Shown: positions 38,863 to 60,466 of the stretch, one piece after another
Numbering within the stretch: the stretch's first letter is position 1
Layout of the letters: the number at the start of each line of letters is the position of its first letter
Assembly (NCBI GenBank): GCA_030684395.1
Contig: JAUXTT010000017.1
Location: 186,001-250,000 of the forward strand
Reading direction: 5' to 3'
From: Bacteroidota bacterium
GTDB taxonomy: Bacteria; Bacteroidota; Bacteroidia; B-17B0; Aurantibacillaceae
DNA length: 64,000 nucleotides
Notes under the pieces: model-generated
Databases searched by the model: none
Seen by the model: the letters and a program-made list of their open reading frames with translations, nothing else
What the model was told of the DNA's origin: nothing
Translations under genes and position numbers: made by a program

Positions 38863-38934
38863 AAGCGAGTTCAATATTTTTTTTACGAAAGTAAATATAA
38901 TTTGCATGTTATTTATTTTATGATTGATGTGTGC

Positions 38935-38955
38935 AAATATGTTCTAAACGGTATA
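38935..38955 (-). promoter_or_regulatory. LytTR box upstream of the metalloprotease and the kinase operon
   Basis: 21 bases AAATATGTTCTAAACGGTAT plus A are identical to 40378-40398. The minus strand of 38944-38952 reads ACCGTTTAG, a perfect LytTR consensus. The site lies between the divergent kinase (73 bp from its ATG) and the protease (133 bp from its ATG), so it may regulate both. Confidence 0.7.
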
Positions 38956-40323: not shown

Positions 40324-40361
40324 AAAGCAAAGCCTGAAATTAAAATTTCAGGCTTTGCTTT
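40324..40361 (+). terminator. terminator after the metalloprotease gene
   Basis: A near-perfect long stem AAAGCAAAGCCTGAAAT/ATTTCAGGCTTTGCTTT with a 4-nt loop followed by a run of T. It lies 34 bp after the protease stop and 17 bp before the second LytTR element, so the adhesin gene needs its own promoter. Confidence 0.85.
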
Positions 40362-40377
40362 TTTTTATTTCTGTGCG

Positions 40378-40398
40378 AAATATGTTCTAAACGGTATA
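40378..40398 (-). promoter_or_regulatory. LytTR box upstream of the adhesin gene
   Basis: Identical 21-base copy of the element at 38935-38955, with ACCGTTTAG on the minus strand (40387-40395). It lies 72 bp before the adhesin ATG and after the protease terminator, in position to control only the adhesin. Confidence 0.7.
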
Positions 40399-45266: not shown

Positions 45267-45291
45267 AATTATTAATATCTATCAGAAAATC

Positions 45292-46398
45292 ATGAAAAAA
45301 ATTATTTTACTAGCAATGTTTTCAATTGCATTAATAAGTCAGGCTCAAGTCGGAGGATTACTAAAAAAAGCCAAAGATAAGGTTTCTAAAAAAGAAGAGC
45401 CTGTAAATGCTTCTCCTACGAATACAACTAACACTACAAAGTCAAATGAGACAAAGGAGCCAGAAGCTAAAATTAATTCAGAAGTACAAGAGAAGAAAAC
45501 GGATGGTATAACAAGCCCAATGCACCAAAAATACATGAACAAAATTGTATTTGCTTCTAAAACGGAAAACTTAGCATTTAAAGAGGAAATAGAAGCCGAG
45601 TTTAAATCTGAATTTAACTTAGGGGAATTGATTTACTTTAGAGTTTATCTAAATAATTCATTGTTAAATTATATTGAACCTATAGTAAAGGAAACGGAGG
45701 ATGCAAAGGGTAAGAATGCTACATTTAAAATGGTGTTCTATATTGACAATATTTTAATTGAGAATTTAAAAAATGACGACATTTCCTTAACTGAATTGAG
45801 CCCAAGTGAAAAGGGAACAAGAACTACTTTCAAAGGAGCGTTTAAGTCAGAATACGATGCTGACCAAATGATTGGAAAAGATGTATTTAAAGAATTAGTT
45901 AGAAAGCAGGACGCGAAATTAACAGCAGGTAAACATCAGTTGCGTATGGAGATTATCCCAATTTATATAGATCCTATTAATTCTAATAATTCAGTTAAAG
46001 GAAATGTGGTTGCTTCTGGTAGTATTACTTTAAATGTAAAAGAAGTTATTGTTAATCCGTCAGACCCAAATGTTTGTATGCCTAAAGCGGTAAAGTCAGA
46101 TCCTGCACTTGAAGCTAAGATGTCGAAATATTACTTCAACGAGTTTAAAACCAAATGTGATGTTGTGAAAATTTATTCAGACAATTGGGTAATTGAAAAA
46201 AACAAGCTAACAGGTGTAAATATGAGCAGACATATTGATGCCTATTTTGGATACAAAGACGCCAATGGAGCTTGCTATAAGCAACTTTATATTGTTTCAC
46301 AAGAATATGATGGAACTAAATTTGTAGATAAGATGGATTTTCTTGGAAATTATTTCCCAACTGAAATTAACTGTAAATGCCTGCAAATAAAACCGTAA
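45292..46398 (+). CDS. exported protein of unknown function
   Basis: A 368-residue protein with a signal peptide (MKKIILLAMFSIALISQAQV). A low-complexity linker rich in E/K/T/N (residues 30-75) is followed by two beta-rich domains, one with FGYKDANGACYKQLYIVSQE near the end. A cysteine pair (CKCLQIK) closes the protein. I do not recognise the family. It follows the adhesin by 25 bp and could be co-transcribed, but its role is unknown. Confidence 0.72.
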   Translation: MKKIILLAMFSIALISQAQVGGLLKKAKDKVSKKEEPVNASPTNTTNTTKSNETKEPEAKINSEVQEKKTDGITSPMHQKYMNKIVFASKTENLAFKEEIEAEFKSEFNLGELIYFRVYLNNSLLNYIEPIVKETEDAKGKNATFKMVFYIDNILIENLKNDDISLTELSPSEKGTRTTFKGAFKSEYDADQMIGKDVFKELVRKQDAKLTAGKHQLRMEIIPIYIDPINSNNSVKGNVVASGSITLNVKEVIVNPSDPNVCMPKAVKSDPALEAKMSKYYFNEFKTKCDVVKIYSDNWVIEKNKLTGVNMSRHIDAYFGYKDANGACYKQLYIVSQEYDGTKFVDKMDFLGNYFPTEINCKCLQIKP

Positions 46399-46432
46399 CA
46401 AACATTATTAGCACTTAACCTATAAAACAATT

Positions 46433-47010
46433 ATGGAAACAAAATTTGAAATAGAAATTCATTATAATGCGCAAAAAATAAAACGTATATTAACGATACT
46501 CATTATTTTGATTGTTCTTAGTGCAATAGCATTCATAATAGGCACTGTTTTTTGGGATGAATATACTCATATGGAATATGGCACATCACTTAGGTTAAAA
46601 CAAGGAGCACGTGTTGCAGGTTGCCTGTATGGGCTTGTAATATTGGAAGATATTTAGGAATAATTTCAATTATATCATTTGTAATTATTTACTTAAAAAG
46701 CAAAAAGAAGGAAGCAGTCTTGGCTCTAAATAAAGATGGAATGTATATAAATCAAAATGGAATTAAAGATGCATTTTTAACTCGGAAAGAAATTGCTCGC
46801 GTTGAAAAAACAGTGCCAGCTTCCGGAGGCTTAGCTTTGAGTATTTACTTTGTTGATAATTTAAAGATTATTGAAAATGCAAAAGGAATTCAGAAAACAA
46901 TGCTAAAAGAAAATTTGAAATATGGAAAGCCTTTTAAAATTGAAAGTAATCTTTATGTTGGTGATTTTAATGAGTTTTACAATAAAGCAGTTAGCTTTAA
47001 AACGCAATAA
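46433..47010 (+). pseudogene. frameshifted STM3941-like membrane protein gene
   Basis: The first frame (46433-46657) reads METKFEIEIHYNAQKIKRIL with one hydrophobic segment and ends VAGCLYGLVILEDI. The second frame (46621-47010) resumes GIISIISFVIIYLKSKKKEA with a second segment and continues DGMYINQNGIKDAFLTRKEI to SNLYVGDFNEFYNKAVSF. Together they have the layout of STM3941-type proteins (two membrane helices followed by a PH-like beta domain). One indel around 46625-46655 separates the halves. Homology is judged by overall pattern, so the family name is tentative; the frameshift itself is clear. Confidence 0.55.
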
Positions 47011-47113
47011 GATATCTTAAAAAAGATAATAGAATGAATTATTTGGAAAAAGTCGGTTCATTTTAAATAACCTTTTTAAATAAGCGAAAGATATAACCTA
47101 TTAGTAGAAAACA

Positions 47114-47524
47114 ATGGAAGAAATAGTAATTAAAGAAGCTCAAGCCCAATATTTAAAATCAGCCGTGAATTTGATTGATGGTTTTTTGATTTTAACTAAT
47201 AAAAGAATCATATATTCAGGTACACAAGCTCGTGTAAAATTTAATCACGGTGCTGTTGGTAACATTGTAAGGGATAAAATGGAAAAAGCGATGGGTTATG
47301 ACATTAACGAAGAAGAAACTATTTTTGACATTCCGCTTTCTGACGTTAATCACAAATTTAAAAGATATGGATTCTCTAAAAGACTTGTAATAAGCGATAA
47401 ACAAAACGTTGAATATAAGCTTATGCTTATGGTAAAAAAGGCAGAACGTGACGAATGGCCTAATGCCATTGATAATGCAAAAATCGGAATCGGAAGTAAA
47501 AATTCATGGCAAAAGCGCAAATAA
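47114..47524 (+). CDS. small PH-like domain protein
   Basis: A 136-residue soluble protein. The segment VNLIDGFLILTNKRIIYSGT is typical of bacterial PH-like domains, followed by a beta-strand-rich region (RYGFSKRLVISDKQNVEYKL). No signal peptide. Function unknown. Its last 19 bases overlap the start of the decayed panE-like gene, so the pair may once have been one operon. Confidence 0.7.
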   Translation: MEEIVIKEAQAQYLKSAVNLIDGFLILTNKRIIYSGTQARVKFNHGAVGNIVRDKMEKAMGYDINEEETIFDIPLSDVNHKFKRYGFSKRLVISDKQNVEYKLMLMVKKAERDEWPNAIDNAKIGIGSKNSWQKRK

Positions 47525-48469
47525 TTATTGCAGGAATTGGTGGTGTTGGTGGCTACTTTGGCGGACTATTAGCCAAACACTATCATGATAGCAAAAATGT
47601 TGAAATTTTCTTTCTCGCACGTGGACAACACCTCGAAGAAATTAAAAAAAGCGGTTTAAAAGTAATTAAAGGTGATGTTGAATTTATTGCCAAACCTACT
47701 TTAGCAACAAACAACCCATCAGAAATTGGCATTGCAGACCTTGTTATAATTACTACAAAGACTTTCGACCTTGAGACAATAATACAACAATTACAACCCT
47801 GCATTAGCCAGGATACAATTATTTTACCATTACTCCATGGAGTTGATAGTAAGCAAAGGATAGAAAAAAATACTTACTGGAAATTTGGTTTTAGAGGGCT
47901 GTGTCTATATCGTTTCTCGCCTTAAACAAGCTGGCGTAATTGAAAATAGTGGCAATGTACAATTGCTTTATTTTGGCAAAGATAATTTTGTAAATGAGTG
48001 ACTATTTTTTCTTGAAGAAATGTTTAAACAAACAAACATACAAGCAACGTATTCAAGAAATATTTCTACTATAATTTTGGGGGAAATTATTTTTCTTTCG
48101 CCCACAGCAACAATAACTTCTGCGTTTGACAAATGTATTGGTGAAATTCTTTCTGATAAAGATAGTTTGGCAATCATGACTTTATTAATTACAGAAATTA
48201 CTAAAATAGCAAAAGCCAAAAAAATTACTGTTTCTGAAAACATAACTGAAAAGACCTTGATGAAATTGAAATCTTTGCCATTTGAAACAACAACTTCAAT
48301 GCATACAGATTTCATCAACAAGGAAATGAAAACAGAACTAGAATCTTTGATTGAATTTGTTATTAAAGAATCTGAAAAGTCTAATATACCAACACCAACC
48401 TATTTAAGATTATATGAAATTCTTGAGAAGAAGGTTAGTTCCTCTAGCATAAGCAATCATTCTATATAA
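47506..48469 (+). pseudogene. decayed ketopantoate reductase-like gene
   Basis: The first part (47506-47925) encodes the Rossmann opening IIIAGIGGVGGYFGGLLAKH and continues to a stop after RGLCLYRFSP. Around a seven-A run at 47864-47870 the frame shifts: in the other frame it continues as GNLVLEGCVYIVSRLKQAGV, meets a TGA at 47999-48001, and then runs MFKQTNIQATYSRNISTI to ILEKKVSS at 48469 as in the C-terminal dehydrogenase domain (PanE/ApbA). Two disabling changes mean it is a pseudogene. It would have reduced 2-dehydropantoate or a related keto acid. Confidence 0.8.
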
Positions 48470-48480
48470 ATTTAATTCAG

Positions 48481-48816
48481 ATGAGTGATATAACTAAAGA
48501 AGCTGCAAAAGAATGGATTACAAAAACCTGTGGAGAAGGTCGGCTAAATTTGGTTGATATAATTTATGATAATAAACCTGAAAACATCGAAATAACAATG
48601 GTTTTTAATAAATGGGCAGGATTAAAAGTTGATTTCATAGGGAAGGATGTGATTTTTGAGGAACTACTTGAAACTATATACTCGATAAGCGAAAAAATGT
48701 GCACAATATGTGGGAAAAGTGGAAGACGTGTAGTTATTGGTGGCGTGGAAACAACATTATGCGACCAGCATTATAATTCTATAGAAGGAAAAGAAAAATA
48801 CAGAGCTGAAAAATAA
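48481..48816 (+). CDS. small zinc-ribbon-like protein of unknown function
   Basis: A 111-residue soluble protein with no signal peptide. A C-terminal CTICGKSGRRVVIGGVETTL followed by CDQH gives a CxxC-x(17)-CxxH pattern that may bind zinc. The N-terminal half (WITKTCGEGRLNLVDIIYDN) is not recognised. It begins twelve bases after the panE-like remnant and may be an intact bystander. Confidence 0.65.
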   Translation: MSDITKEAAKEWITKTCGEGRLNLVDIIYDNKPENIEITMVFNKWAGLKVDFIGKDVIFEELLETIYSISEKMCTICGKSGRRVVIGGVETTLCDQHYNSIEGKEKYRAEK

Positions 48817-48858
48817 GTTGAACTTGAAATATTTAAAATTTTATAAAAGAAATAAACA

Positions 48859-49377
48859 ATGAGACTCTCAGGAATATTACTTAATGTGAATAGAACTGTA
48901 CAAGATTCTGAAATTCTTTTGTTGGTAAATGAAGCAACAGAAGAAACTCCTGAAAATTCACATTTTGAAACAATTACATCTGATGAATTTGAGGGTGTAG
49001 GAATTCTTCGCATTAATAATACTGTTTTAATATTAGAAAAAAGTATTGCCCACGGATGTTCTTTTGATGAAATTAAGCCTTCCATATTTGATGATGAATT
49101 GGCAGCATTATCTTCTGATGGACAAGTGTTGTGCTTTTTAATAAATTCATATTCTGATACGTATGCTTATTCCTACTTTAAAAATGGCGCGCGCCTTTCA
49201 TATAAAGGTTCAGTTGGTGCAGAAGACTTGCCAAACGCATTAGAAAATGAAGATTTGGGTAAAGTAGAAATGACAGAGTCTGATATTATTGCTTTGATAG
49301 AAAAAATTGGCAGTTTTTATTTCGATGATTTGTGGAAGTTAGAAGCATCACAAGTATTGGCATACCACACTTTGTAA
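48859..49377 (+). CDS. hypothetical acidic protein
   Basis: A 172-residue cytoplasmic protein, rich in acidic residues (EATEETPENSHFETITSDEF). It contains a long alternating stretch (QVLCFLINSYSDTYAYSYFK) and a C-terminal helix (IIALIEKIGSFYFDDLWKLE). The look is that of small immunity-type proteins found near Bacteroidota secretion islands, but I find no motif. It follows the previous gene by 42 bp. Confidence 0.6.
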   Translation: MRLSGILLNVNRTVQDSEILLLVNEATEETPENSHFETITSDEFEGVGILRINNTVLILEKSIAHGCSFDEIKPSIFDDELAALSSDGQVLCFLINSYSDTYAYSYFKNGARLSYKGSVGAEDLPNALENEDLGKVEMTESDIIALIEKIGSFYFDDLWKLEASQVLAYHTL

Positions 49378-49449
49378 ACATGAATTAGAATAACACTAAA
49401 ATATTTATGTAACTCACGAAAAAAACGAAATAATTAATCATAAACAAAA

Positions 49450-50937
49450 ATGCACAAACTAAAAATTCTATTCTTTCTTTTCCTATTAAGCATAACTTCT
49501 TTTGGACAAGTAGAAAAATCATCTGATTTATATAAACTAATTAGGGAAAAAGACAGTCTACTTTTTACAATTGGATTCAATACATGCGACATCAAACAAT
49601 TTGATAATCTTGTCAGTGAAAATTTTGAATTTTACCATGACCAAGAAGGAGTTACAAATTCAAAAGTGGCTTTTATATCAGGAATCAAAAGTGGACTTTG
49701 CAAACTTCAATATAAACCCAAAAGAACTTTAGCCGAAAACTCTATGGAGGTTTACCCTTTGAAAAAGGAGGGTGTTTTGTATGGTGCAATTCAAACGGGG
49801 ACACATAATTTTTATGCGATTGAAAGTGACAAATCAGAATACCTAACAAGTGTTTCTAAATTCACGCATGTTTGGATGCTGGAAAATGGGAATTGGAAAC
49901 TTACAAAAGGTTTAAGTTATGACCATAAAGATTTTGAAAAACCTTTTGATGAAAAGCTTTTGTTTACGAATAAAAATGAAACTGAAAGATGGCTAAAACA
50001 AAAATATATTCCAGCATTAGGTATTGGTTTTATTAAAGATGGTAAAATCGAACAAATAAGTGTGTTTGGAGAATTAGAAAAAGATAAACCTGCCCCTGTA
50101 AATACAATTTGGAATGTTGCATCCATGACAAAGCCTATCACTGCTCTTGTTGCGTTAAAACTAATAGATGCAGGTAAATGGGATTTAGACGAACCTATTT
50201 ACAACTATTACACCGATCCAGATGTTGTAAACGATCCTAGAGCGAAAAAATTAACCACACGAATAATTTTGAGCCATCAAACAGGTTTTCCAAATTGGAG
50301 AGGAAATAACGCAGACGGGAAATTATCCTTCGAATTTGAACCCGGAACAAAATATCAATACTCAGGAGAAGGCTATGAATATTTACGAAAAGCAATCGAA
50401 AAGAAGTTTAAAAAGTCATTAGAAAAATTAGCAAGTGAATTAATTTTTAAACCATTAAAAATGAATGATACAAGGTTCACTTGGGATAAAAAAATGGATT
50501 CTACACGCTTTGCTAAATGGCACACTGAAACAGGAAAACTTTATGAAACGCACAAAAACACAACTGCCAATGCAGCAGACAATTTACTGACAACCGTTGG
50601 AGATTATTCCAAGTTTTTGGTTCATATATTGAATGGAGCTGGCATATCAACTAAACTATACAATGAAATGATAGCTGAACAAGTTAGAATAAATGACACT
50701 AAACATTGGGGTTTAGGTTGGTGGATTGATGAAAATATAAACAGCAATAAAGATTTTGCGCTTGTTCACGGAGGTGATGATATTGGTGTTCATACCATTG
50801 CATTTATTGTCCCAAAAACAAAGCAAGCACTTTTGATTTTTACAAACTGTGATAACGGAACAGATGCTTTTGAAGAAATACTTGTAAAGTTTTTAGGGAA
50901 AGACGGAGAAGGAATACTGAATATTGAGATGAAATAA
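49450..50937 (+). CDS. serine hydrolase (beta-lactamase fold) with SnoaL-like N-terminal domain
   Basis: A 495-residue exported protein (signal peptide MHKLKILFFLFLLSITSFGQ). Residues about 25-160 are a DUF4440/SnoaL-like cone (IREKDSLLFTIGFNTCDIKQ, MLENGNWKLTKGLSYDHKDF). Residues ~190-480 are a class C beta-lactamase-type domain with SxxK in ASMTKPITA (S225, K228), a Y-S-G motif (KYQYSGEGYEYL) and the HGG box in LVHGGDDIG. This combination hydrolyses esters or D-amino-acid amides in some members; antibiotic inactivation is not implied. The two-domain layout is a recurring fusion. Confidence 0.88.
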   Translation: MHKLKILFFLFLLSITSFGQVEKSSDLYKLIREKDSLLFTIGFNTCDIKQFDNLVSENFEFYHDQEGVTNSKVAFISGIKSGLCKLQYKPKRTLAENSMEVYPLKKEGVLYGAIQTGTHNFYAIESDKSEYLTSVSKFTHVWMLENGNWKLTKGLSYDHKDFEKPFDEKLLFTNKNETERWLKQKYIPALGIGFIKDGKIEQISVFGELEKDKPAPVNTIWNVASMTKPITALVALKLIDAGKWDLDEPIYNYYTDPDVVNDPRAKKLTTRIILSHQTGFPNWRGNNADGKLSFEFEPGTKYQYSGEGYEYLRKAIEKKFKKSLEKLASELIFKPLKMNDTRFTWDKKMDSTRFAKWHTETGKLYETHKNTTANAADNLLTTVGDYSKFLVHILNGAGISTKLYNEMIAEQVRINDTKHWGLGWWIDENINSNKDFALVHGGDDIGVHTIAFIVPKTKQALLIFTNCDNGTDAFEEILVKFLGKDGEGILNIEMK

Positions 50938-50995
50938 TTATTTGATGATGTAAGAATAAAATGTAATTTATATAAACTGATATTAAAATTAAAAC

Positions 50996-51400
50996 ATGAC
51001 AGTAGAACAAAAATTTAAAAAAGCCTCAAAATTGGAAGGAGTGCTAATCATTATCGGAGCACTAAGTTTTATTTGCTGCTACGTTTTTACGCTATTGCAT
51101 TTAGGGTTTAGAAGTCAATATGGAGTCCATAAACAATGGCAATTTTTAAGCACTCAACAATTGTGGATGATAAATGGCGCGCTTGGCTTACTTGGTGGAA
51201 TCTTCTTAAACTATAAGAAGCCAATCATTTCTGGAATCTCAGGATTAGTGGCCAGCATAGGTATTACAAGCTTTAGCCTTCTTTATTTATCTTGGAGAGA
51301 ACAGGTTGAACATATTGAATCGATTATTATGCTCGGAATAGGAATAGTACCAGGTGTGTTTTTGTATAAAATTTTAAATCGAGATAAAAAACGCAATTAA
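50996..51400 (+). CDS. four-helix membrane protein of unknown function
   Basis: A 134-residue protein with four hydrophobic stretches (ILIIIGALSFICCYVFTLLH after VE at the start, then MINGALGLLGGIFLN, ISGISGLVASIGITSFSLLY, IIMLGIGIVPGVFLYKIL). No signature motif. It follows the serine hydrolase by about 60 bp on the same strand and may be co-transcribed. Confidence 0.7.
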   Translation: MTVEQKFKKASKLEGVLIIIGALSFICCYVFTLLHLGFRSQYGVHKQWQFLSTQQLWMINGALGLLGGIFLNYKKPIISGISGLVASIGITSFSLLYLSWREQVEHIESIIMLGIGIVPGVFLYKILNRDKKRN

Positions 51401-51446
51401 GACTCTTAAAAAACAAACTGAATATTTTGCATTAAAAACTGTAAAG

Positions 51447-52040
51447 ATGAAAAAAGGGGCACACATATTTCTTATTATATTATCGATCAGTACATTTTTG
51501 TTTTCCTGTACTAATGCAGAGGAAGTAGAAGTCACTAAAAATGAAAAAATGGAAAATTTGGGTTTCGAAGACATGCCAAATTCAGAAACCAAAAGTATAA
51601 CCATTGAAACTAAAAACACAGCAGATCAACTTGAATTAATCACAAAATTGCGGGCAAAATTAGAAGAGGATGATTTTGATTTTGAACAACAAGAAGTCAC
51701 AAGATTCCCCGGCTTCAGCAATTGCGAAGAAAATACTACAATTTCAATCACAGGAAATGGATTGCGTCAATATTTTGCAAGAAGCAGAAAACCAGAAAAA
51801 AACACCACTGACTTTTACCCTGATTTTATAATACAAGTTTTCGAATTTCAAAATGAACAAATCGCGCAGGAAAAATTTGAAATCATGCACAAAGCCATGC
51901 ATTCTAAAGGCAGATTTTGTAATGGTAAGGCCCCAATGGTTTTAGTGATCAATAATAACGAAGTGTTTTATTTCTTTACAAGAGCAGAAATGTTTCGTGG
52001 CTACATCAATGAATATAGCGAATTCGTAGAAATGCTATGA
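51447..52040 (+). CDS. lipoprotein of unknown function
   Basis: A 197-residue protein with a lipobox FLFSCTN after a hydrophobic stretch (MKKGAHIFLIILSISTFLFS). The mature part starts with an acidic linker and contains two long helical segments (LELITKLRAKLEEDDFDFEQ, QIAQEKFEIMHKAMHSKGRF). No family recognised. It follows the membrane protein by 46 bp. Confidence 0.72.
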   Translation: MKKGAHIFLIILSISTFLFSCTNAEEVEVTKNEKMENLGFEDMPNSETKSITIETKNTADQLELITKLRAKLEEDDFDFEQQEVTRFPGFSNCEENTTISITGNGLRQYFARSRKPEKNTTDFYPDFIIQVFEFQNEQIAQEKFEIMHKAMHSKGRFCNGKAPMVLVINNNEVFYFFTRAEMFRGYINEYSEFVEML

Positions 52041-52238
52041 ATAGATTTAATGCAAATTGGTAAATGGAATGCTTGAAAGCTGAGAACGACAAAAATAGTT
52101 TTGGATTAGACCCATTTAAACTAATGGTGTCTGCCAAGTTTGGCATGATAACATTCATCGTGTAGAGATGGTATAAATAAGTTAGCAGTAATTGAACCAG
52201 AATTAATCAAGGGTGTACAACAATAGTAAATCAACAAC

Positions 52239-53258
52239 ATGAAAAAAAATTTAGCTACACTCATATTTCTGCTTAGTTTCACATTAGTTGATACTTTGGC
52301 CCAACCGGGAGATGATGACCATAAAATCCGATTGAAATATTTCCATGCAATTCAAGACTCCATTCAAAAGTATCCAGACAATCTTTTCTATAAATGGGTA
52401 CGTTTGGATTTGCTTTTCAATCCCCTCTTTGAAATTCAAACAAAACCAACTAAAAAAATAGAGAATTTTCTAAGTAAATCAGCCCATTTTAGTCTATACA
52501 TTCAAGATTCAATTGTACATTCAAGCAGGCCACATTATATGTCTTCTGCGCTTATTATTACTAAAACTTATAATCCAGCAAAGACTTTAGGTGATTTCTT
52601 ATTAAAGAATCAAGATGTGCTCATTGCAGATTTGACCAAATTAATTGAGAATAATTTGAAATTTGAGAATAGATTTATGAACTCCATAGGTCAATATAAT
52701 CCAACAGCAAATAAATCTAACTTTCTGTACAAACGAGGACAGTTCTACTACTTAACAGGTGAAACTGAAAAAGGACTTACTGACTTTACATCTGCATTAA
52801 ATTTTTTTCCTAAAGATGATTTGACAAAAAGAATTTACACTTCATTAGCAGCGTATTATTATAATATTGAAAAGCCAGTGCAAAAAGAAAACTACGAGTT
52901 GGCATTAAAATTCATTAGCCTTGTTGAACCTGCCATAGAAGATAATTCATATAACAAAGGTGCAGAACCGCAGTTATATCGCTACGAAAGAGAGAAGTTG
53001 GAACTTATGAAAAGATACAATGATTCTACTTCATATGTAAGTTATCTTCAAAATAGATCGGTAGGATTTTTGAATTATTACTATTCACTTATGGAAATAG
53101 TAAATGGTGAAGACAGACAAGACTTTGCAATGGACGAAGCATTTGCAAGAAGTAGAGAATATGAATTAATGATTTATGACTATTTGATTGAATTGAATCC
53201 AAGTACTGGCGCAGAAGAATTCAAAAAGCACAAGAAATTGATAATTGAAAAAATATAA
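52239..53258 (+). CDS. exported TPR-like protein
   Basis: A 339-residue protein with a signal peptide (MKKNLATLIFLLSFTLVDTL). Several helical pairs resemble tetratricopeptides (FLYKRGQFYYLTGETEKGLT, TSLAAYYYNIEKPVQKENYE). The 198-bp space upstream shows no other gene. Function unknown; the TPR character is an impression from residue pattern rather than a certain match. Confidence 0.65.
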   Translation: MKKNLATLIFLLSFTLVDTLAQPGDDDHKIRLKYFHAIQDSIQKYPDNLFYKWVRLDLLFNPLFEIQTKPTKKIENFLSKSAHFSLYIQDSIVHSSRPHYMSSALIITKTYNPAKTLGDFLLKNQDVLIADLTKLIENNLKFENRFMNSIGQYNPTANKSNFLYKRGQFYYLTGETEKGLTDFTSALNFFPKDDLTKRIYTSLAAYYYNIEKPVQKENYELALKFISLVEPAIEDNSYNKGAEPQLYRYEREKLELMKRYNDSTSYVSYLQNRSVGFLNYYYSLMEIVNGEDRQDFAMDEAFARSREYELMIYDYLIELNPSTGAEEFKKHKKLIIEKI

Positions 53259-53261
53259 CTA

Positions 53262-53414
53262 ATGCTAACACAACCTTTGATAAATGTAGTGCAGAACGAA
53301 AATAAAAGTTTGCTTGTTAGGAATTATGAATTGCTATCAGAAGTACAATCCGTAAATGAAAACAAGTACTTTTTTATAAATATGCTCACTTGGACAAAAA
53401 TAATTTCTGAATAA
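53262..53414 (+). pseudogene. duplicated 3' gene fragment
   Basis: This 50-codon frame (MLTQPLINVVQNENKSLLVR onwards to NMLTWTKIISE) matches the last 50 codons of the gene at 55094 (PVINAVHDENKSLIVRNYEF through DMLTWTKIIFN) at both protein and DNA level, including the following linker and ATGAAAAAACTA. It is a truncated copy lacking signal peptide and N-terminus. Confidence 0.75.
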
Positions 53415-53420
53415 ATTAAA

Positions 53421-54413
53421 ATGAAAAAACTACTTGCTATATCACTTCTTTTATTTTCATTAAATGGAGCTTGTCAATCGTTCCAAAAAACGTTCATCCG
53501 AGAATTTGTTCCAAATTCTAATGCTAAAATTAGCTGTAAATATGAGTTTAGCTTAGATAGTACTTTTTTATATGAGCAAAAAAATAGTTCATTAGTAAAT
53601 GGGGTAAGTCAGCAAACGATAATAAATTCATATACAGGCACCTATAAAACTTATGGTGATACTATAAAATTATTAAGTCTCAATGGTGAAATTTTAGAAC
53701 CCTCTGAAGAGCATTGCTTAATAATAGATTCCATTTTAAACGGAGTAATGGCTTTAAGTAATACGCATAAACTAACAGACTATTTTTACGATGAAAGTTT
53801 GTGGATTATTAAAGGTAAGTGGGGAGAATATAATATGATCTGGGGATATTATACCGAACAAATTGATTGTAGTAAAAAGGACTCAAGTTACGATTATAAA
53901 CGAATAGCCTTGGTTGATTTAAAATACGCTGATACAACTTATTATTGTATCCCAGCGAGTAATGATAAATTAAAATTTAATTTGAGTTTCTATGCTAAAT
54001 ACTTTTCTGTGCTCAATTATTTAATACTTATTCCTTTTTCTGAGAAAGGCGTTTCACAACGACCTTGCAGATGTTATGACAATGACATGTACATAACCCA
54101 TTGTCTTCATGGTTGGTCTGAGAGGATGTCTACATCACCTATTTTAGGTTCTCAATATGATGACAATGGCAGGTTGATACAGTATTGTCTTTATGGTGGG
54201 TTTGAGATGAGCTCTATCCCAACTGTTTTAGGTTTTGAATATTATGATAATACTGATTTAATAAAATCTTCGGCTGTATCTGGCCCAATTGAAATTGATA
54301 AAAAAGAGTATAAAACATTTAAGTATGATAATGAAGGAAGGCTTATTGAATTTAATATTCATTATTATGAAAAGGGAGAATTGACGCATAGTTATAAAAT
54401 AATTTATTTGTAA
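53421..54413 (+). CDS. exported protein of unknown function
   Basis: A 330-residue protein with a signal peptide (MKKLLAISLLLFSLNGACQS). Repetitive tyrosine/asparagine-rich segments near the end (QYDDNGRLIQYCLYGGFEMS, YDNEGRLIEFNIHYYEKGEL) resemble short YD/RHS-like or lipid-barrier strands (YDNEGRL). It starts 6 bp after the duplicated fragment, and its first codons are the same MKK(L) as in that family, so the fragment may have donated its 5' end. The stop is followed by 1 bp before the next ATG. Confidence 0.7.
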   Translation: MKKLLAISLLLFSLNGACQSFQKTFIREFVPNSNAKISCKYEFSLDSTFLYEQKNSSLVNGVSQQTIINSYTGTYKTYGDTIKLLSLNGEILEPSEEHCLIIDSILNGVMALSNTHKLTDYFYDESLWIIKGKWGEYNMIWGYYTEQIDCSKKDSSYDYKRIALVDLKYADTTYYCIPASNDKLKFNLSFYAKYFSVLNYLILIPFSEKGVSQRPCRCYDNDMYITHCLHGWSERMSTSPILGSQYDDNGRLIQYCLYGGFEMSSIPTVLGFEYYDNTDLIKSSAVSGPIEIDKKEYKTFKYDNEGRLIEFNIHYYEKGELTHSYKIIYL

Positions 54414-54414
54414 A

Positions 54415-55050
54415 ATGAAAAAACTAATAATCTTACTTTTATTCATTGCCACAACTCCAATTTTTGGGCAAAGCGATAGTCTAAATCAAGCCAAAATTGA
54501 TAGCTTGTGTAATGTTTTGCCTCTAAATTTATCATCAACTGAAGTTATTCGTTATGGATTAACCTACGATACTTGGGTAAGCAATGACGATTTTGGCATT
54601 AGTATCGCAAATGGCTGGAGACGCGACACTTTGAATGGCGATAAAGGAGTGCATAGAAATCCATTCACTTCTTCCGACAATGACAGATATGAAAAAAACC
54701 AATTTAAAGATTCTAACACCGATTGTCGATATTATAGATATAAAAAAGGGAGAAAATATACTGGAAAAGTATCAGATACTCTTTTTTCAATATACCAAGG
54801 GGAAATTATTTTCAATACAAATTGCATTAATGGAATGATACAAGGCAAAGGAACTTTAATATTACTCAGCACCAAGCAAATAATAGCAAGCTGTAGTTTT
54901 GAAGATGGAGAACTAATTGGCGAGTGTATTTCCGTGAATCGAAAAACAATGGGTGAATATCGATTCACTTATGTAAAAGGTAATTTTCAGTGGACAAAAA
55001 TGATTGAATTGGATAAAGATGGAAAAGTCATATTAGTTGGAGAGCAATAA
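54415..55050 (+). CDS. exported protein with MORN-like segment
   Basis: A 211-residue protein with a signal peptide (MKKLIILLLFIATTPIFGQS). The middle carries GISIANGWRRDTLNGDKGVH and YKKGRKYTGKVSDTLFSIYQ; the end has GKGTLILLSTKQIIASCSFE and DGELIGECISVNRKTMGEYR, a variant MORN-type repeat (G-x-G-x-L). A paralogue with the same architecture is at 55643. It begins 1 bp after the previous stop, so translation is coupled. Function unknown. Confidence 0.72.
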   Translation: MKKLIILLLFIATTPIFGQSDSLNQAKIDSLCNVLPLNLSSTEVIRYGLTYDTWVSNDDFGISIANGWRRDTLNGDKGVHRNPFTSSDNDRYEKNQFKDSNTDCRYYRYKKGRKYTGKVSDTLFSIYQGEIIFNTNCINGMIQGKGTLILLSTKQIIASCSFEDGELIGECISVNRKTMGEYRFTYVKGNFQWTKMIELDKDGKVILVGEQ

Positions 55051-55093
55051 GATTGAGAATGTTCCCAATTTTAATCCTTAAAAAATGAACAAA

Positions 55094-55636
55094 ATGAAAA
55101 AACTAATAATCTTACTTTTACTTATTGCCACAGCTCCAATTTTTGGGCAATCATCTAGTTCTGCAGAATTTGAAATAAATCTGATTGTCAACAAAAACAG
55201 AAAAGATTTTGAAAACATGCAGATGTATTACATTTCAGGAACTGGAATTACAAACTGCCAACTTCAAATAGATTCCACCGAAAATAGTAATTACTGTAGT
55301 GTTAAACTTTACGGAAGCTATGTTTATTTTGGTGGTGGAAATGCTATATTTCCAACCTTTATCATTTCAGAAACGAAGAACAATGTCATTCAAAATTATC
55401 TGATTAAGGTTGATTTTAGCGCTGGACCCGTTTCAAACATTAAAACTTCCGAACCCAAAATTAATCAAATAGCAATTTCACTATATCCATCACAACCTGT
55501 GATAAATGCTGTGCATGACGAAAATAAAAGTTTGATTGTTAGGAATTATGAATTTCTTTCGGAAGTACAATCCATAAAGGAAAATAAGTACTTTTTTATA
55601 GATATGCTCACTTGGACAAAAATAATTTTTAATTAA
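55094..55636 (+). CDS. exported protein of unknown function
   Basis: A 180-residue protein starting at the ATG at 55094 (MKKLIILLLLIATAPIFGQS), three codons downstream of an alternative ATG. The mature part (INLIVNKNRKDFENMQMYYI) is beta-rich and unrelated to its neighbours, although the signal-peptide DNA is almost identical to that of the genes at 54415 and 55643. The last 50 codons recur as a fragment at 53262. No family recognised. Confidence 0.7.
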   Translation: MKKLIILLLLIATAPIFGQSSSSAEFEINLIVNKNRKDFENMQMYYISGTGITNCQLQIDSTENSNYCSVKLYGSYVYFGGGNAIFPTFIISETKNNVIQNYLIKVDFSAGPVSNIKTSEPKINQIAISLYPSQPVINAVHDENKSLIVRNYEFLSEVQSIKENKYFFIDMLTWTKIIFN

Positions 55637-55642
55637 ATTGAA

Positions 55643-56167
55643 ATGAAAAAACTAATCATCTTCATGTTCCTGATTGCCACAACTCCAAGTTTCGCGCAAA
55701 ATGATAGTGCCAGGATGTATAAAGGCAATGTGAATCATATAATTGTTTTAAACCCCAATGGTGAATCCTTAATAAAATTCCCTAAGAAAAAAAGAACCTA
55801 TAACGAATTTGTTGGAAATTATGCAATTGAATACGGCTTTAAGCTAGCAGAAGGATGGAGAAGAGACTCTTGTAATGGTGGATATGGAAAAGAGATGGGT
55901 GATAATCCGTATATAGATTTTATTAAATGTCAATTTATAAAGACAGATTACGGAAGCAATTTTGTTTATTTTTATTATAAAAGAGGTAAAAGATATTCTG
56001 GAAAAATTAAAGAAAAATTTAACTTGCTAGGTGGTTCTCGACAGGAAATAACTTTTCGTGCAAGATGTCGGAATGGAAAACTTCAAGGAAAAGGGACGCT
56101 CACAATATCTGAAACGAAAGAAATTGTTGCAGAATGTTTTTTTGAAAATGGAGAATTAGTTGGTTAA
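55643..56167 (+). CDS. truncated paralogue of the MORN-like protein
   Basis: A 174-residue frame with signal peptide MKKLIIFMFLIATTPSFAQN. GFKLAEGWRRDSCNGGYGKE and YYKRGKRYSGKIKEKFNLLG match the equivalents at 54415; CRNGKLQGKGTLTISETKEI and AECFFENGELVG end at a TAA where the paralogue continues with ECISVNRKTMGEYR. The reading frame beyond the stop is still similar for another 42 codons (next entry). Probably no longer complete. Seven bases separate it from the preceding gene. Confidence 0.65.
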   Translation: MKKLIIFMFLIATTPSFAQNDSARMYKGNVNHIIVLNPNGESLIKFPKKKRTYNEFVGNYAIEYGFKLAEGWRRDSCNGGYGKEMGDNPYIDFIKCQFIKTDYGSNFVYFYYKRGKRYSGKIKEKFNLLGGSRQEITFRARCRNGKLQGKGTLTISETKEIVAECFFENGELVG

Positions 56168-56293
56168 TGTGTTTTCGTGAATCGAAAAACAATGGGAGAA
56201 TATTGATTCACCTACGCAAAAGGAAATAGTCAGTGGACAAAAATGATTGAGTTAGATAAAGAGGGAAAAGTTATTTTAGTTCGAGAGCAATGA
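56168..56293 (+). pseudogene. remnant C-terminus of the truncated paralogue
   Basis: In the frame of the preceding gene, 42 codons after the stop read CVFVNRKTMGEY, a second stop (TGA in place of CGA at 56207) and then FTYAKGNSQWTKMIELDKEG to VILVREQ and TGA at 56291. The gene at 54415 reads CISVNRKTMGEYRFTYVKGN here. So a GAG-to-TAA and a CGA-to-TGA change cut an otherwise preserved tail. Confidence 0.75.
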
Positions 56294-56326
56294 AATAATA
56301 GGGAATTAATCCACAAAATTAACATT

Positions 56327-57055
56327 ATGAAAAAACTAGTATCCATTATTATAAGTTTCACTTTAGCATTAAATTCATTTGGTCAAGAACCTGCTGAACA
56401 AATAAGGTTAATCATAATAGATTCTTTAGGGAAGTTAATTACTCCCGATATTTGGATTAAAAGTAAACACATCAATATGAATGATGTGAAAGTAATTGAA
56501 TCTAAAGAAGAACATTTAATAATCGACTCAATTCCTAAATTTCAATTTGGCTCCATCGTTTTTAACGGAAGTTCTTATACCATTTTTCCAATAATTGGTG
56601 GTCATTGGCTAGACAATGAATATAATATCAAATTCTCTTTTGAAAATAAAGTCATGAATATCAATCTAATTACCAACGGTAGTTCTTTTAGTGACACCAT
56701 TACATTTAGAAAAGGGAATTTTGTTTACCTGCATCACAGTCTTAATTACAGTAATTCGCATTCGTTAATAGCAGCATGGCCTAAAGATTGTGATTTTATA
56801 AAACATACAAAAGAAAAAATCATTCAATTAAATTCCAATAGTGAAAGTGATTTTTGTTCTTTGAATTGTGAGGGAACAATAAAAGAATTAGATTCTAAGT
56901 TGACAACAATTCTATTAAAGAACATTAAATATTTTCCTGAATTTTTAATAATTAACAATTTACCTTTGGGGGTTCTTATTTGGAATAAGGAACGCCTTCA
57001 AGTCTGTTACTTTTCAGATAATTTTATTGAAATATTAAGAAAGAATTACTACTAA
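56327..57055 (+). CDS. exported protein of unknown function
   Basis: A 242-residue protein with a signal peptide (MKKLVSIIISFTLALNSFGQ). Mixed beta-strand character with VNLITNGSSFSDTITFRKGN-like segments and three cysteines in the second half (SDFCSLNCEGTIKE). No family recognised. It lies 33 bp after the remnant, on the same strand as the whole cluster, which probably forms one transcript. Confidence 0.7.
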   Translation: MKKLVSIIISFTLALNSFGQEPAEQIRLIIIDSLGKLITPDIWIKSKHINMNDVKVIESKEEHLIIDSIPKFQFGSIVFNGSSYTIFPIIGGHWLDNEYNIKFSFENKVMNINLITNGSSFSDTITFRKGNFVYLHHSLNYSNSHSLIAAWPKDCDFIKHTKEKIIQLNSNSESDFCSLNCEGTIKELDSKLTTILLKNIKYFPEFLIINNLPLGVLIWNKERLQVCYFSDNFIEILRKNYY

Positions 57056-57065
57056 AAGCAGAGTG

Positions 57066-57089
57066 ATTGAATATTATAATTTATAGAAT
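57066..57089 (+). repeat. 24-bp leader repeat, copy 1
   Basis: ATTGAATATTATAATTTATAGAAT just before the ATG at 57088 recurs with one mismatch at 57878-57901, in the 5' space of the next gene. It may mark a duplication of the 5' end of the gene at 57088; copy 2 is followed by a ten-codon frame beginning MKNRTYF. Confidence 0.6.
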
Positions 57090-57882
57090 GAGAAAAATGA
57101 AAAAATATAGTTTAATAATCTTACTCACTTGTGTTTTGATGAAATCGCATGCACAATATCCTTCTGAGATTTCATTCGAAATAAACCAACAAAAATTTCT
57201 GGTAAAAGTAAATTATACAACTAATTTTAAAACAGTTGTTGCTTTTTTTAGAGATTCAGTTCTGATTAAAAGCGACACATTATTGCATAACGAATTTACA
57301 AAATTATACTTTCGAGGATTTAATAAAGACACATTGGTAAATATAAGATTGATTGGATTTAAAAACGGATACAAAAATGCTGAATATGTATATGCAAGTA
57401 AATATATCGAAATTGAGAAAACACTTAGTCTCGACTTAGATCCTTCATATTATGATAAATATTGTAAATTGTATGAGTATAACAAAAAACTAAATAATTT
57501 TAATTCGGTTAATGGATTTGACTGGATACGTAATCCTGAATTTCTTAAAAGTAATCCTCATTACTTTACAAGTACCCAAAGGTTTGATTGTGAACAGTTG
57601 TCATACATCACAACACTATTCCTTATAAGTAATCTTAAAATTTACCCAAAAGCACAAATGAATCAAATGTCTGCAAACGATTCTTTTGGAACAATGGTAG
57701 TTGAACTATACGAAATTGATAAGAAAAACGAAAATAAAAAAACAATGATAGATAGGCAGGTGAAATGCACTATGCAACCTGTTTGTTATGGACCTTCGCA
57801 TGTTTCCCACTTTAATGATGGGTTATATTGGGAAAAGCATTGTGTAGATTTTAAAGCATATAGGCTACTTGGGAGTAATTGA
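57088..57882 (+). CDS. exported protein of unknown function
   Basis: A 264-residue protein if started at 57088 (MRKMKKYSLIILLTCVLMKS); an ATG at 57097 (MKKYSLI) is equally plausible and an upstream TTG is rejected. After the signal peptide the chain is acidic-basic mixed with ISFEINQQKFLVKVNYTTNF and a distal HFNDGLYWEKHCVDFKAYRL, with no recognised family. It shares a 24-bp leader with the space after it. Confidence 0.68.
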   Translation: MRKMKKYSLIILLTCVLMKSHAQYPSEISFEINQQKFLVKVNYTTNFKTVVAFFRDSVLIKSDTLLHNEFTKLYFRGFNKDTLVNIRLIGFKNGYKNAEYVYASKYIEIEKTLSLDLDPSYYDKYCKLYEYNKKLNNFNSVNGFDWIRNPEFLKSNPHYFTSTQRFDCEQLSYITTLFLISNLKIYPKAQMNQMSANDSFGTMVVELYEIDKKNENKKTMIDRQVKCTMQPVCYGPSHVSHFNDGLYWEKHCVDFKAYRLLGSN

Positions 57883-57901
57883 ATATTATAATTAATAGAA
57901 T
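57878..57901 (+). repeat. 24-bp leader repeat, copy 2
   Basis: ATTGAATATTATAATTAATAGAAT, one mismatch from the copy at 57066. The ATG at 57909 opens a frame of only ten codons (MKNRTYFIHL) before a stop, perhaps the trimmed start of a lost gene. Confidence 0.6.
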
Positions 57902-57967
57902 TTATAAAATGAAAAATAGAACCTATTTTATACATCTTTAAAATAATTAATACAGAAAAATAATTCT

Positions 57968-59407
57968 ATGAAAATTTTTATCTTCATTCTTGCTTGCCTT
58001 TTAATCTTTGTTAATAACTATGCCCAACCAGGTTATCCGCCAGATAAATATGTGAACTTAGATGATATACCAGATTCTGCCGAAATTGTATATACGAGCT
58101 TTGTACACCCTTCGAATATTTATGGCGGCTATCAGATTTACTATTTTATTGATTCGAGTACAACAAAGTTCAAAAATCTATCTCTTTTAAAAGAAATCAC
58201 ATTAGACTTGAACTTTATCCCGCAAGAAATGATTGATTTCGGACAGAATATCGAAATTTTGAAAATGAGGAGTAATCACTATAAAATGTCGAATAACATC
58301 GAAAATGCGCAGCTTCATGATACTATCAAAAATTTACTTTTGCTGAATAAACTTCCAAATCTAACAACTGTTTATATCAGTGGGTTTTACATTGATGAAG
58401 AAAATCAACTAGTTAATAATGAATTACGTATAGCACAAAGCAATAATCAGAGTCGATTTTTTTCTTTTGTAGATGTAGAAATTTTAAACATTAGCGAACA
58501 CGTACTTTGCACGAAGTTATACTTGCACACAACGAAAATCAGCAATATTAAGGGTCTTGTTCAAAATACTTTTATAAAGGAAATGTATTTATCTAAACTC
58601 AACTTTATTAAATTGCCTGAAAATTTACCTCCTTCACTTGAAAAGCTCGAAGTAAGTAATTGTGATTCATTGACCGATATTTCAAATTTATCAGAATATC
58701 CAAAATTATCATCTTTCATTATTCATACAGGCTCAAAAATAAAACAGTTCCCTAAAAAACTTCAATCTGAGATTTTTTCAACGATTGAAATCGATTATAT
58801 TAGACCAGAACGTGTTGTTGAATTTATGGAGTTTATCAGCAATGCAAAAACAATTGAATGGCTTAAAATTGGAACATGCCGAGGGGAAGGAATCGGTAAA
58901 ATTGATGTTGATTTCCGAAACAATAAGGTTACAATTGGAACACTAGATATTAATGGAAATTGCTTTGATTCAAGAGCCCCAATTCAACTAAACGGAATAG
59001 ATAGCCTTTCGGTAACAAATTTATATTTGAATGGAGTTTTTGATGAAATTCCTGCCTTTTCAAAAATAAAAGACCTGCGTAAATTGTATTTTGGTTCATG
59101 TTATCCTATGAATAAAGAAACTATGGAAGAACTATTTAAATTAAAAAATCTCTCAGAATTCAGAATTAGCAATATTAAAGTTAATGTAATACCAGAGCGT
59201 TTTTTTAAAAATAACACAAGTCTAGTGAGTTTATCAATTGTAGGGTCTGAGATCAAAAACTTATCCTTTCATAATTGCATTTTGATCAATTTAAGACACT
59301 TTCATATAGCTGGGAATATGAATCTGGAAAAAATTCCAAAGAAAATGTATTATCCCAATGCTTATTTAAATTTGTACGGGAATAAAAAAGAAAAGTACAC
59401 GAATTGA
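57968..59407 (+). CDS. exported leucine-rich-repeat-like protein
   Basis: A 479-residue protein with a signal peptide (MKIFIFILACLLIFVNNYAQ). Residues about 60-470 show an irregular L-x-x-L-x-x-L pattern (EMYLSKLNFIKLPENLPPSL, NLSEFRISNIKVNVIPERFF, TSLVSLSIVGSEIKNLSFHN), as in leucine-rich repeats of the diverged, BspA-like kind. It would form a solenoid for protein binding on the cell surface or in the periplasm. No T9SS sorting domain is visible. It is the last gene before the right end of the putative island. Confidence 0.75.
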   Translation: MKIFIFILACLLIFVNNYAQPGYPPDKYVNLDDIPDSAEIVYTSFVHPSNIYGGYQIYYFIDSSTTKFKNLSLLKEITLDLNFIPQEMIDFGQNIEILKMRSNHYKMSNNIENAQLHDTIKNLLLLNKLPNLTTVYISGFYIDEENQLVNNELRIAQSNNQSRFFSFVDVEILNISEHVLCTKLYLHTTKISNIKGLVQNTFIKEMYLSKLNFIKLPENLPPSLEKLEVSNCDSLTDISNLSEYPKLSSFIIHTGSKIKQFPKKLQSEIFSTIEIDYIRPERVVEFMEFISNAKTIEWLKIGTCRGEGIGKIDVDFRNNKVTIGTLDINGNCFDSRAPIQLNGIDSLSVTNLYLNGVFDEIPAFSKIKDLRKLYFGSCYPMNKETMEELFKLKNLSEFRISNIKVNVIPERFFKNNTSLVSLSIVGSEIKNLSFHNCILINLRHFHIAGNMNLEKIPKKMYYPNAYLNLYGNKKEKYTN

Positions 59408-59523
59408 TACACCAACATTACGCATTAAAAAAAATTGAGTTCGATAGCAGAAATAGTATTAAAACACAAACAAAATGAAAACTACACTAATTTTAAGAAG
59501 ATAATTTAATCTAAGTTAAAAAT

Positions 59524-59544
59524 TATCCACCTATATATCCACCC
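59524..59544. repeat. paired TATCCACC repeat, right end
   Basis: TATCCACCT at 59524 and TATCCACCC at 59536, the same 12-nt period and orientation as the left-end pair at 36018 and 36030. Confidence 0.5.
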
Positions 59545-59552
59545 GATAAACT

Positions 59553-59591
59553 AAAAAACTCCTGTAAATACTTGATTTACAGGAGTTTTTT
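59553..59591 (-). terminator. terminator of tRNA-Glu
   Basis: A 17-bp stem AAAAAACTCCTGTAAAT/ATTTACAGGAGTTTTTT with a 5-nt loop. It lies 11 bp downstream of the tRNA 3' end on the minus strand and works in both directions. Confidence 0.85.
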
Positions 59592-59602
59592 AGTTTTAAC
59601 TG

Positions 59603-59674
59603 TAGCCCGTACGGGAATCGAACCCGTGTTTCGTCCGTGAAAGGGACGCGTCCTAACCCCTAGACGAACGGGCC
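59603..59674 (-). tRNA. tRNA-Glu (TTC)
   Basis: Minus-strand cloverleaf beginning GGCCCGTTCGTCTAGGGGTT, anticodon stem CGTCC/GGACG with loop CTTTCAC (anticodon TTC), T-arm ACGGGTTCGATTCCCGT and acceptor ending ACGGGCT with discriminator A; CCA is not encoded. The first acceptor pair is a G-U wobble in this alignment. Its 3' end is duplicated at 35875-35888. Confidence 0.94.
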
Positions 59675-59770
59675 ATCTTATGTTTAGTGTAAAAACTTCA
59701 GATGGTAAAGCCAAATTTTTCATTTGGGAGTGCAAATGTAGAACTTTTTTTAATCCCTACAAAAATTTCT

Positions 59771-60466
59771 TTAAAAATTTAAGTCATCCCCAAACGTAGC
59801 GTCGTTTTGAAACCTGAAACCCAGTCGTTTACCCGTTTTTAGCTTATCGCTTTGGATACGCTCCTGGATCTCATTTAAGGAAATTTCCTTTACTGCCTCG
59901 GTAGGTGGCGTATAAAGGTCGAAACTGATACAATAGATGATCAATTCATTTACAATATCCTTTATCGCTTCTTTTGAAATAGGAGCTGGAGAAAAATTCT
60001 GATACTTAAAGCCTAAGTTTGGTTTTGATTCCACAAAAAAACGTGACTCCTGATTAACAAAAATCCGCGCAATCAAATATCCCAAATCGTTTAAACGATT
60101 ATACTTAAAACTATCGGACAGGAAATTGTAAACGTAAATAATACCGCAATAAGAATTGTTGTGATTTTCTTTCACATAACCGGTTTTAAACATCGGATGC
60201 GATTTATCAAATTCAAATACATTCGTATGCATATAAAACACCAGTACATCACCCGCTACTTTCAACTCTACCTGATAATCACCAATAGAATCGTAATCAA
60301 CATGTATCCGGTGATCTATGCCTTTTGCTTCTTCTTTCAATTCGTCACATATCTCGTTCACCACTGTTTTGAATTGCTCAAAGGCTGCTTTCGTATTACG
60401 ATATACATTTTGTTTCATTACTGACTTTTCTTTCAGTAATTGAGTTATTTGATCTTTTTGTGACAT
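59771..60466 (-). CDS. conserved hypothetical protein
   Basis: A 231-residue soluble protein with no signal peptide or membrane helices. Starts MSQKDQITQLLKEKSVMKQN, a helical N-terminus, then alternating strands (YQVELKVAGDVLVFYMHTNV) and the segment FQNDATFGDDLNF at the end. I do not recognise a motif; the sequence character suggests a conserved Bacteroidota cytoplasmic protein. It is separated from proS by 36 bp and read in the same direction, so co-transcription is likely. Confidence 0.72.
   Translation of the reverse strand: MSQKDQITQLLKEKSVMKQNVYRNTKAAFEQFKTVVNEICDELKEEAKGIDHRIHVDYDSIGDYQVELKVAGDVLVFYMHTNVFEFDKSHPMFKTGYVKENHNNSYCGIIYVYNFLSDSFKYNRLNDLGYLIARIFVNQESRFFVESKPNLGFKYQNFSPAPISKEAIKDIVNELIIYCISFDLYTPPTEAVKEISLNEIQERIQSDKLKTGKRLGFRFQNDATFGDDLNF

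Follow-up and report, generated by a model that had tools for sequence, protein, structure and literature searches.

Truncated paralogous remnants left by partial tandem duplication are a general feature of bacterial genome evolution, and chimeric genes arise by homeologous recombination between a resident gene and a homologue gained by horizontal transfer. Neisseria pilS, the CdiA/Rhs orphans and TpsA provide examples of silent 3' cassettes and orphan tips, and the pilS and vls cassettes rewrite expressed genes by gene conversion. The locus compared here with these systems lies in a 64,000-nucleotide window (the whole stretch of DNA that was analysed) of a Bacteroidota bacterium. It contains a short fragment, F, which is probably what is left of the 3' end of a second, now dead copy of gene A. 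F lies in a cluster of small exported orphan genes that is confined to this species among the genomes examined and has probably been rearranged by homologous or short-homology recombination. The locus is filed as a local recombination mosaic of known kind. Genes g1, g2, B1, A, B2, C, D and E of the cluster all lie on one strand, between a beta-lactamase-family gene (49450-50937) and its neighbours on one side and tRNA-Glu/proS on the other. The features are as follows.

52239..53258, + strand: g1, exported protein of 339 aa with a weak TPR-like match, ending with its stop codon at the left edge of F
53259..53414, + strand: F, 3'-end fragment of an A-type gene, with homology firm from 53269 and no signal peptide
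53415..53432, + strand: linker and ATGAAAAAACTA start common to the A-to-B2 junction; right breakpoint at 53432
53421..54413, + strand: g2, exported orphan protein of 330 aa, beginning with the shared 12-mer; B1 starts 1 nt downstream
54415..55050, + strand: B1, exported B-family protein of 211 aa, complete
54412..54471, + strand: B1 DNA encoding the signal peptide; identity 95% with the A segment and 82-83% with the B2 segment
54897..55108, + strand: B1 tail, linker and A start, 80% identical to 56140-56341
55085..55636, + strand: A, full-length exported orphan protein of 183 aa, with an alternative start at 55094
55491..55654, + strand: reference copy of the repeat (A tail, linker and B2 start), from self-BLAST
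55643..56167, + strand: B2, chimeric B-family gene of 174 codons to an in-frame TAA; the core is codons 47-173
56168..56293, + strand: B1-like tail behind the B2 stop, with a second in-frame stop (TGA) inside; presumably untranslated
56327..57055, + strand: C, exported orphan protein after the second copy of the B-tail junction, beginning with the shared 12-mer
57061..57104, + strand: third junction repeat, linker and ATGAAAAA before D, 86% identical to 57873-57916
57094-57882, + strand: D, gene between two copies of linker and ATGAAAAA
57873..57916, + strand: linker and ATGAAAAA behind D, where the start meets a stop after 10 codons

No Pfam or NCBIfam family scored above cut-off for g1, g2, B1, A, B2 or C, and the predicted structures were poor (mean pLDDT of 44 for A and 34 for B1), too low for a fold search. 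Within g2, two tandem 84-nt copies of 73% identity occupy 54071-54238, and the last bases of the gene resemble the end of A (AAAATAATTT), in sequence too AT-rich to judge. Elsewhere in the window, a ketopantoate reductase is split over two ORFs (47506-48469, ApbA N- and C-terminal halves) and looks frameshifted. A 40-nt repeat of 85% identity containing AAATATGTTCTAAACGGTATA (38916-38955 and 40360-40398) precedes neighbouring exported-protein genes (39088 and 40470) and is possibly a shared promoter or operator. The gene at 40470-45266 encodes a 1598-aa protein with many near-identical repeats, which we take to be a surface-type protein with a C-terminal sorting-like end.

Self-BLAST aligns 53269-53432 with 55491-55654 over 164 nt at 89.6% identity (E of about 2e-58 for the cluster and 3e-57 for the whole window), the latter segment comprising the last ~48 codons of A, a 6-nt linker and the ATGAAAAAACTA start of B2. 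This bears out the preliminary description, in which the end of gene A, its linker and the following start were reported to recur at about 53262-53430, and the pairwise alignment of the two segments proposed there has sharp edges and no gaps. The boundaries are sharp because ungapped identity at an offset of 2222 is 14-20/20 across 53260-53439 and drops to 3-10/20 outside. On the left, the end can be placed only to within ~17 nt (53252-53269). The alignment reaches the stop codon of g1 (TAA in F, TCA at that place in A), and the left edge of F is indistinguishable from the natural end of g1. The right end is the last base of ATGAAAAAACTA (53432), within the start of the next gene. Also correct were the statements that the copy lacks a signal peptide, F being a 50-aa ORF (53262-53414) without one, and that different genes follow the two copies: g2 (53421-54413) and B2 (from 55643) show no likeness past MKKL. 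The claim that recombination used the shared junction held in that the homology stops at ATGAAAAAACTA and that the same layout is found at the B1-to-A and B2-to-C junctions, but use of the junction is something that we infer; the 12-nt shared start at the right edge could be the remainder of a longer homology rather than the crossover site.

A search of the whole genome with the A protein matched only A itself, F and the signal peptide of B1. F keeps ~48 of the 183 residues of A, all from the C-terminal end, as a truncated duplicate does. Across 48 codons, 16 base changes separate the two copies; they fall in 14 codons, 11 of which have an altered residue, and the 13 of 16 substitutions called protein-changing are base changes located in residue-changing codons. 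The corresponding dN of 0.11 and dS of 0.17 come from just 16 base changes, too few for certainty. Such changes are about what drift would give and what would be expected without strong constraint, with no clear selection on F. F is best read, on this sequence comparison, as a fossil of a second A gene and is presumably without function. Like the products of partial tandem duplication, it is a 5'-truncated copy near a full gene, showing few signs of constraint, with tail and linker repeated; unlike them, several repeats here end at the same gene start, and the next genes are unrelated, not paralogous.

The F/A repeat is one of several junction repeats of the cluster, all packed into 5 kb. The 212 nt of 54897-55108 (B1 tail, linker and A start) recur at 80% identity as 56140-56341 (B2 tail, linker and C start); A and C, which stand behind the two copies, are unrelated, and this repeat also ends at the 12-mer. 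A third pair, 57061-57104 before D and 57873-57916 after it, consists of linker and ATGAAAAA at 86% identity. As a control, the same self-BLAST was applied to 21 other stretches of the same genome (418 kb), of which seven contain the 12-mer and several were chosen for the 12-mer or for an attC-like site. No recognisable repeat of tail, linker and start was listed in these control stretches, where repeats lie inside repetitive genes, between paralogous genes and in a few other places. Four control pairs are unclear: two glycosyltransferase-like gene starts, a hairpin-like element flanking a gene, a partial gene copy and a non-coding pair. In the partial copy (L073:1443-2972, on contig C7 of this genome, G000), a 215-nt 5' part of a small gene recurs at 91% beyond a neighbouring gene, presumably KilA-N-like. 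Partial gene copies are therefore not rare in this genome, since the control stretches contain them, and the form of tail, linker and start was seen, within what was sampled, in the cluster alone.

The order F-(g2)-B1-A-B2-(C) is compatible with two A-B units into which g2 and C were inserted at gene starts. Removal of g2 from start to start would join F to B1 as A is joined to B2, which follows from the definition of the repeat and is not separate evidence. An account close to that of the preliminary description has a modest chance of being right: ~164 nt were copied from A to behind g1, and a second full A never stood there. The repeat is short, begins near the g1 stop codon and ends at a gene start, and partial gene copies such as the 5' piece of L073 exist elsewhere in the genome. 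However, copying of a segment leaves unexplained both the same colinear pattern at the B junction and the gene order that fits two A-B units.

Relatives do not supply breakpoints, because on the proS side of five of them (L046-L050; a genome of the same genus, whose proS has 92% identity, plus four further members of the family) just proS and its two neighbours match, and none of g1 to E is found. No relative of A was detected in 87 genomes of the family, 395 of the class, genome contigs (searched by patterns) or viral contigs. Four of 394 genomes matched A outside its own genome, two at the signal peptide (G350 and G116) and two over short stretches with stops inside (G014 and G454); these were treated as chance or signal-peptide similarity and rejected as relatives. 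For g2, no match was found in 394 other genomes, and g1 had weak matches in two of 246 others, over residues 135-239 only, with no full-length relative. Among the genomes examined the cluster is species-specific, and since no relative carries A, neither an ancestor with two units nor the truncation of F is seen anywhere.

Signal-peptide-coding DNA is shared between genes whose mature products differ. The segments of A and B1 are identical at 57 of 60 nt, and the B2 version is 82-83% identical. Mature A has no detectable homology to B1, B2, g2 or C (best E of 0.15), and the whole genome holds no other good match to the A/B1 segment (next best E of 9e-4 over 26 nt). Signal peptides have thus been exchanged between different mature proteins of the cluster (A/B1 and B2). 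The suggestion in the preliminary description that signal peptides could be moved in this way is therefore partly right: it holds for the cluster, but fails at the F junction, where only MKKL is shared: no signal peptide moved there, because the breakpoint precedes the hydrophobic part of the g2 signal peptide.

The 4.87-Mb genome has 21 exact copies of the 12-mer ATGAAAAAACTA, five of which form the consecutive gene starts of g2, B1, A, B2 and C within 2.9 kb. Only g2 and C are independent cases, because the clustering of B1, A and B2 is partly shared descent. In 474.8 kb of sequence from the same genome, 20 signal-peptide-like ORFs (15 + 5) have ATGAAAAAA followed by a codon other than CTA; extrapolation to the genome gives ~205 such starts, whereas starts with CTA outside the cluster number 16 at most. 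CTA would thus follow ATGAAAAAA in ~7% or less of cases outside the cluster, and the chance that both g2 and C carry it would be ~0.005, both figures being rough estimates. The suggestion that CTA is common after ATGAAAAAA (9/35) was dismissed because several stretches had been chosen for holding the 12-mer; equally, its count of 0/15 in stretches without the 12-mer is true by construction and is not evidence.

B2 consists of a B1-like signal peptide, a core of the type found in genome G288 and a B1-like tail behind an in-frame stop. The core is 90% identical in nucleotides to the gene of G288, a genome of a different family, over 126 codons (dN 0.07, dS 0.29). At informative sites, those that distinguish B1 from G288, B2 agrees with B1 by 20:1 in codons 1-20, with G288 by 121:16 in codons 47-173 and again with B1 by 55:5 in codons 174-217. 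Fisher tests gave p=3e-28 for core versus tail and p=1e-14 for signal peptide versus core, sites at which B2 matches neither (6, 8 and 6 in signal peptide, core and tail) being left out. The right junction lies at ...TTGG (~56163-56167): the 50 nt before it equal G288 exactly, the sequence after it is B1-like, and TAA follows at once. The left junction can be placed only within codons 21-46, where neither parent fits (9:9, with 12 sites matching neither). B2 is clearly a chimera, different parts of which side with different relatives and which has a sharp right junction; its signal peptide is of the resident type and not that of G288, because codons 1-20 side with B1. Like other homeologous chimeras, B2 has a core of G288 type between resident signal peptide and tail, with its right crossover in a conserved stretch, but unlike them it is truncated by a stop immediately after the crossover.

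Over 38 codons, with the stop codon left out, the tails of B1 and B2 give a dN of 0.06 and a dS of 0.53. The tail was therefore under protein-level selection for most of its history and not junk throughout, so the two stops in the B2 tail must be later. The B1/B2 event is older than the F/A event. The F junction is the weakest example of the process, and the A/B1 signal-peptide DNA and the B2 hybrid are strong ones.

The proteins encoded by integron cassettes are often exported (PMC10963911). The cluster could be viewed more broadly as a gene-swapping locus built on a uniform start, at which coding regions are swapped or inserted start to start and arrivals, including those from integron cassettes, receive a resident signal peptide. 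With the same ATGAAAAAACTA at the start of consecutive exported genes, and the whole signal-peptide DNA common to some of them, in-frame swaps would keep translation and export. This broader reading is unlikely.

A profile of B1 and B2 matched four places in three of 394 other genomes of the class; the B family was found neither in genome contigs or viral contigs nor in plasmids (searched with the B1 protein). In G288 the B-type gene stands among ~130-nt repeats ending in CTAACA...CGTTAG, ends that we take to match the core-site rule of integron attC sites. An attC-like model was built from 12 such repeats of G288 and G227, which score 88-126 bits, and it also finds two sites outside the building set: another G288 site (66 bits) and a site immediately preceding the B gene of G129 (51.5 bits). 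Three of the four B-family places outside the genome under study adjoin attC-like sites, on both sides in G288 and on contig C47 of G227 and on one side in G129; the fourth, on contig C58 of G227, is without such a site. The B gene of the G288 type looks cassette-borne, the word integron being a reading of the sites alone. The regions L082 (G288:C136:1-8541) and L084 (G227:C47:1-12000) are cassette-like arrays of genes parted by ~130-nt repeats with attC-like ends, with nine and four attC-like sites, respectively, at >=66 bits; the L082 genes presumably include Fic/Doc-like and PIN-like ORFs.

Like integron gene cassettes, most of these relatives adjoin attC-like sites, but the cluster itself has none: in 45000-60000 the best score was 13.7 bits with filters off. 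That the cluster is the remnant of an integron cassette array whose attC sites were lost is consequently improbable, even though its outside relatives adjoin such sites in three places of four and other sites occur elsewhere in the same genome (best 51.4 bits, on contig C26), since the linkers from F to D, 1-43 nt long apart from the dead tail behind B2, are also too short for attC. On C26, the region L095:6266-13553 has attC-like sites of 51.4 and 38.1 bits and three weaker ones beside a reverse-transcriptase-like ORF and orphan ORFs, and is possibly a small cassette array.

F shares with silent 3' cassettes and orphan tips the form of a 3' fragment without a start or signal peptide near a full gene. 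On that model F and the tail behind B2, both 5'-truncated, without start and signal peptide and within 2.3 kb of a full gene, would be retained as a source of sequence for gene conversion at the 3' ends of A and B1, and an exchange between B2 and B1 at the tail boundary has happened. The model is nevertheless very improbable. There is one fragment per gene and one partial copy of A in the whole genome, F lies upstream of the full gene, and the F/A substitutions are scattered, with no converted blocks or other sign of conversion at F. No variation within the population is known, and no second isolate of the species was found. Signs of toxin/immunity pairing are also absent from the cluster. That lysine-rich, AT-rich gene starts came to resemble one another by chance or convergence has negligible probability as an explanation: although MKKL is a common start of exported proteins, the repeats of 164 nt at 89.6% and 212 nt at 80% reach far past the start, which refutes a chance origin for them and leaves one possible for the 12-mer at g2 and C alone.

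The favoured reading of F as the remnant of a second A copy fits a history that we infer (its ancestral order, order of events, recombination pathway and horizontal transfer of the core) from the observed repeats and their edges, the B2 chimera and the shared signal-peptide DNA. Most economically, the ancestor would have had two A-B units, A1-B1-A2-B2. A1 would have lost its front to become F, fused behind g1; g2 would have entered between A1 and B1, directly where B1 starts, and C would occupy the site at which another A was due to begin. The crossovers would have used sequence common to the genes, namely, the gene start ATGAAAAA(ACTA), the DNA coding for the signal peptide, and the B-family coding motif FENGELVG. 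By an exchange of this sort, B2 would have obtained its core from a cassette-type B relative that had been acquired horizontally.

Lineage-specific exported proteins are often without known relatives, and here one hybrid can be read base by base: in B2, the signal peptide and tail are resident, and the core is near-identical to a gene from a cassette-like locus of a different family. Should swaps anchored at gene starts prove common, they would offer foreign genes a simple way of becoming secreted proteins.
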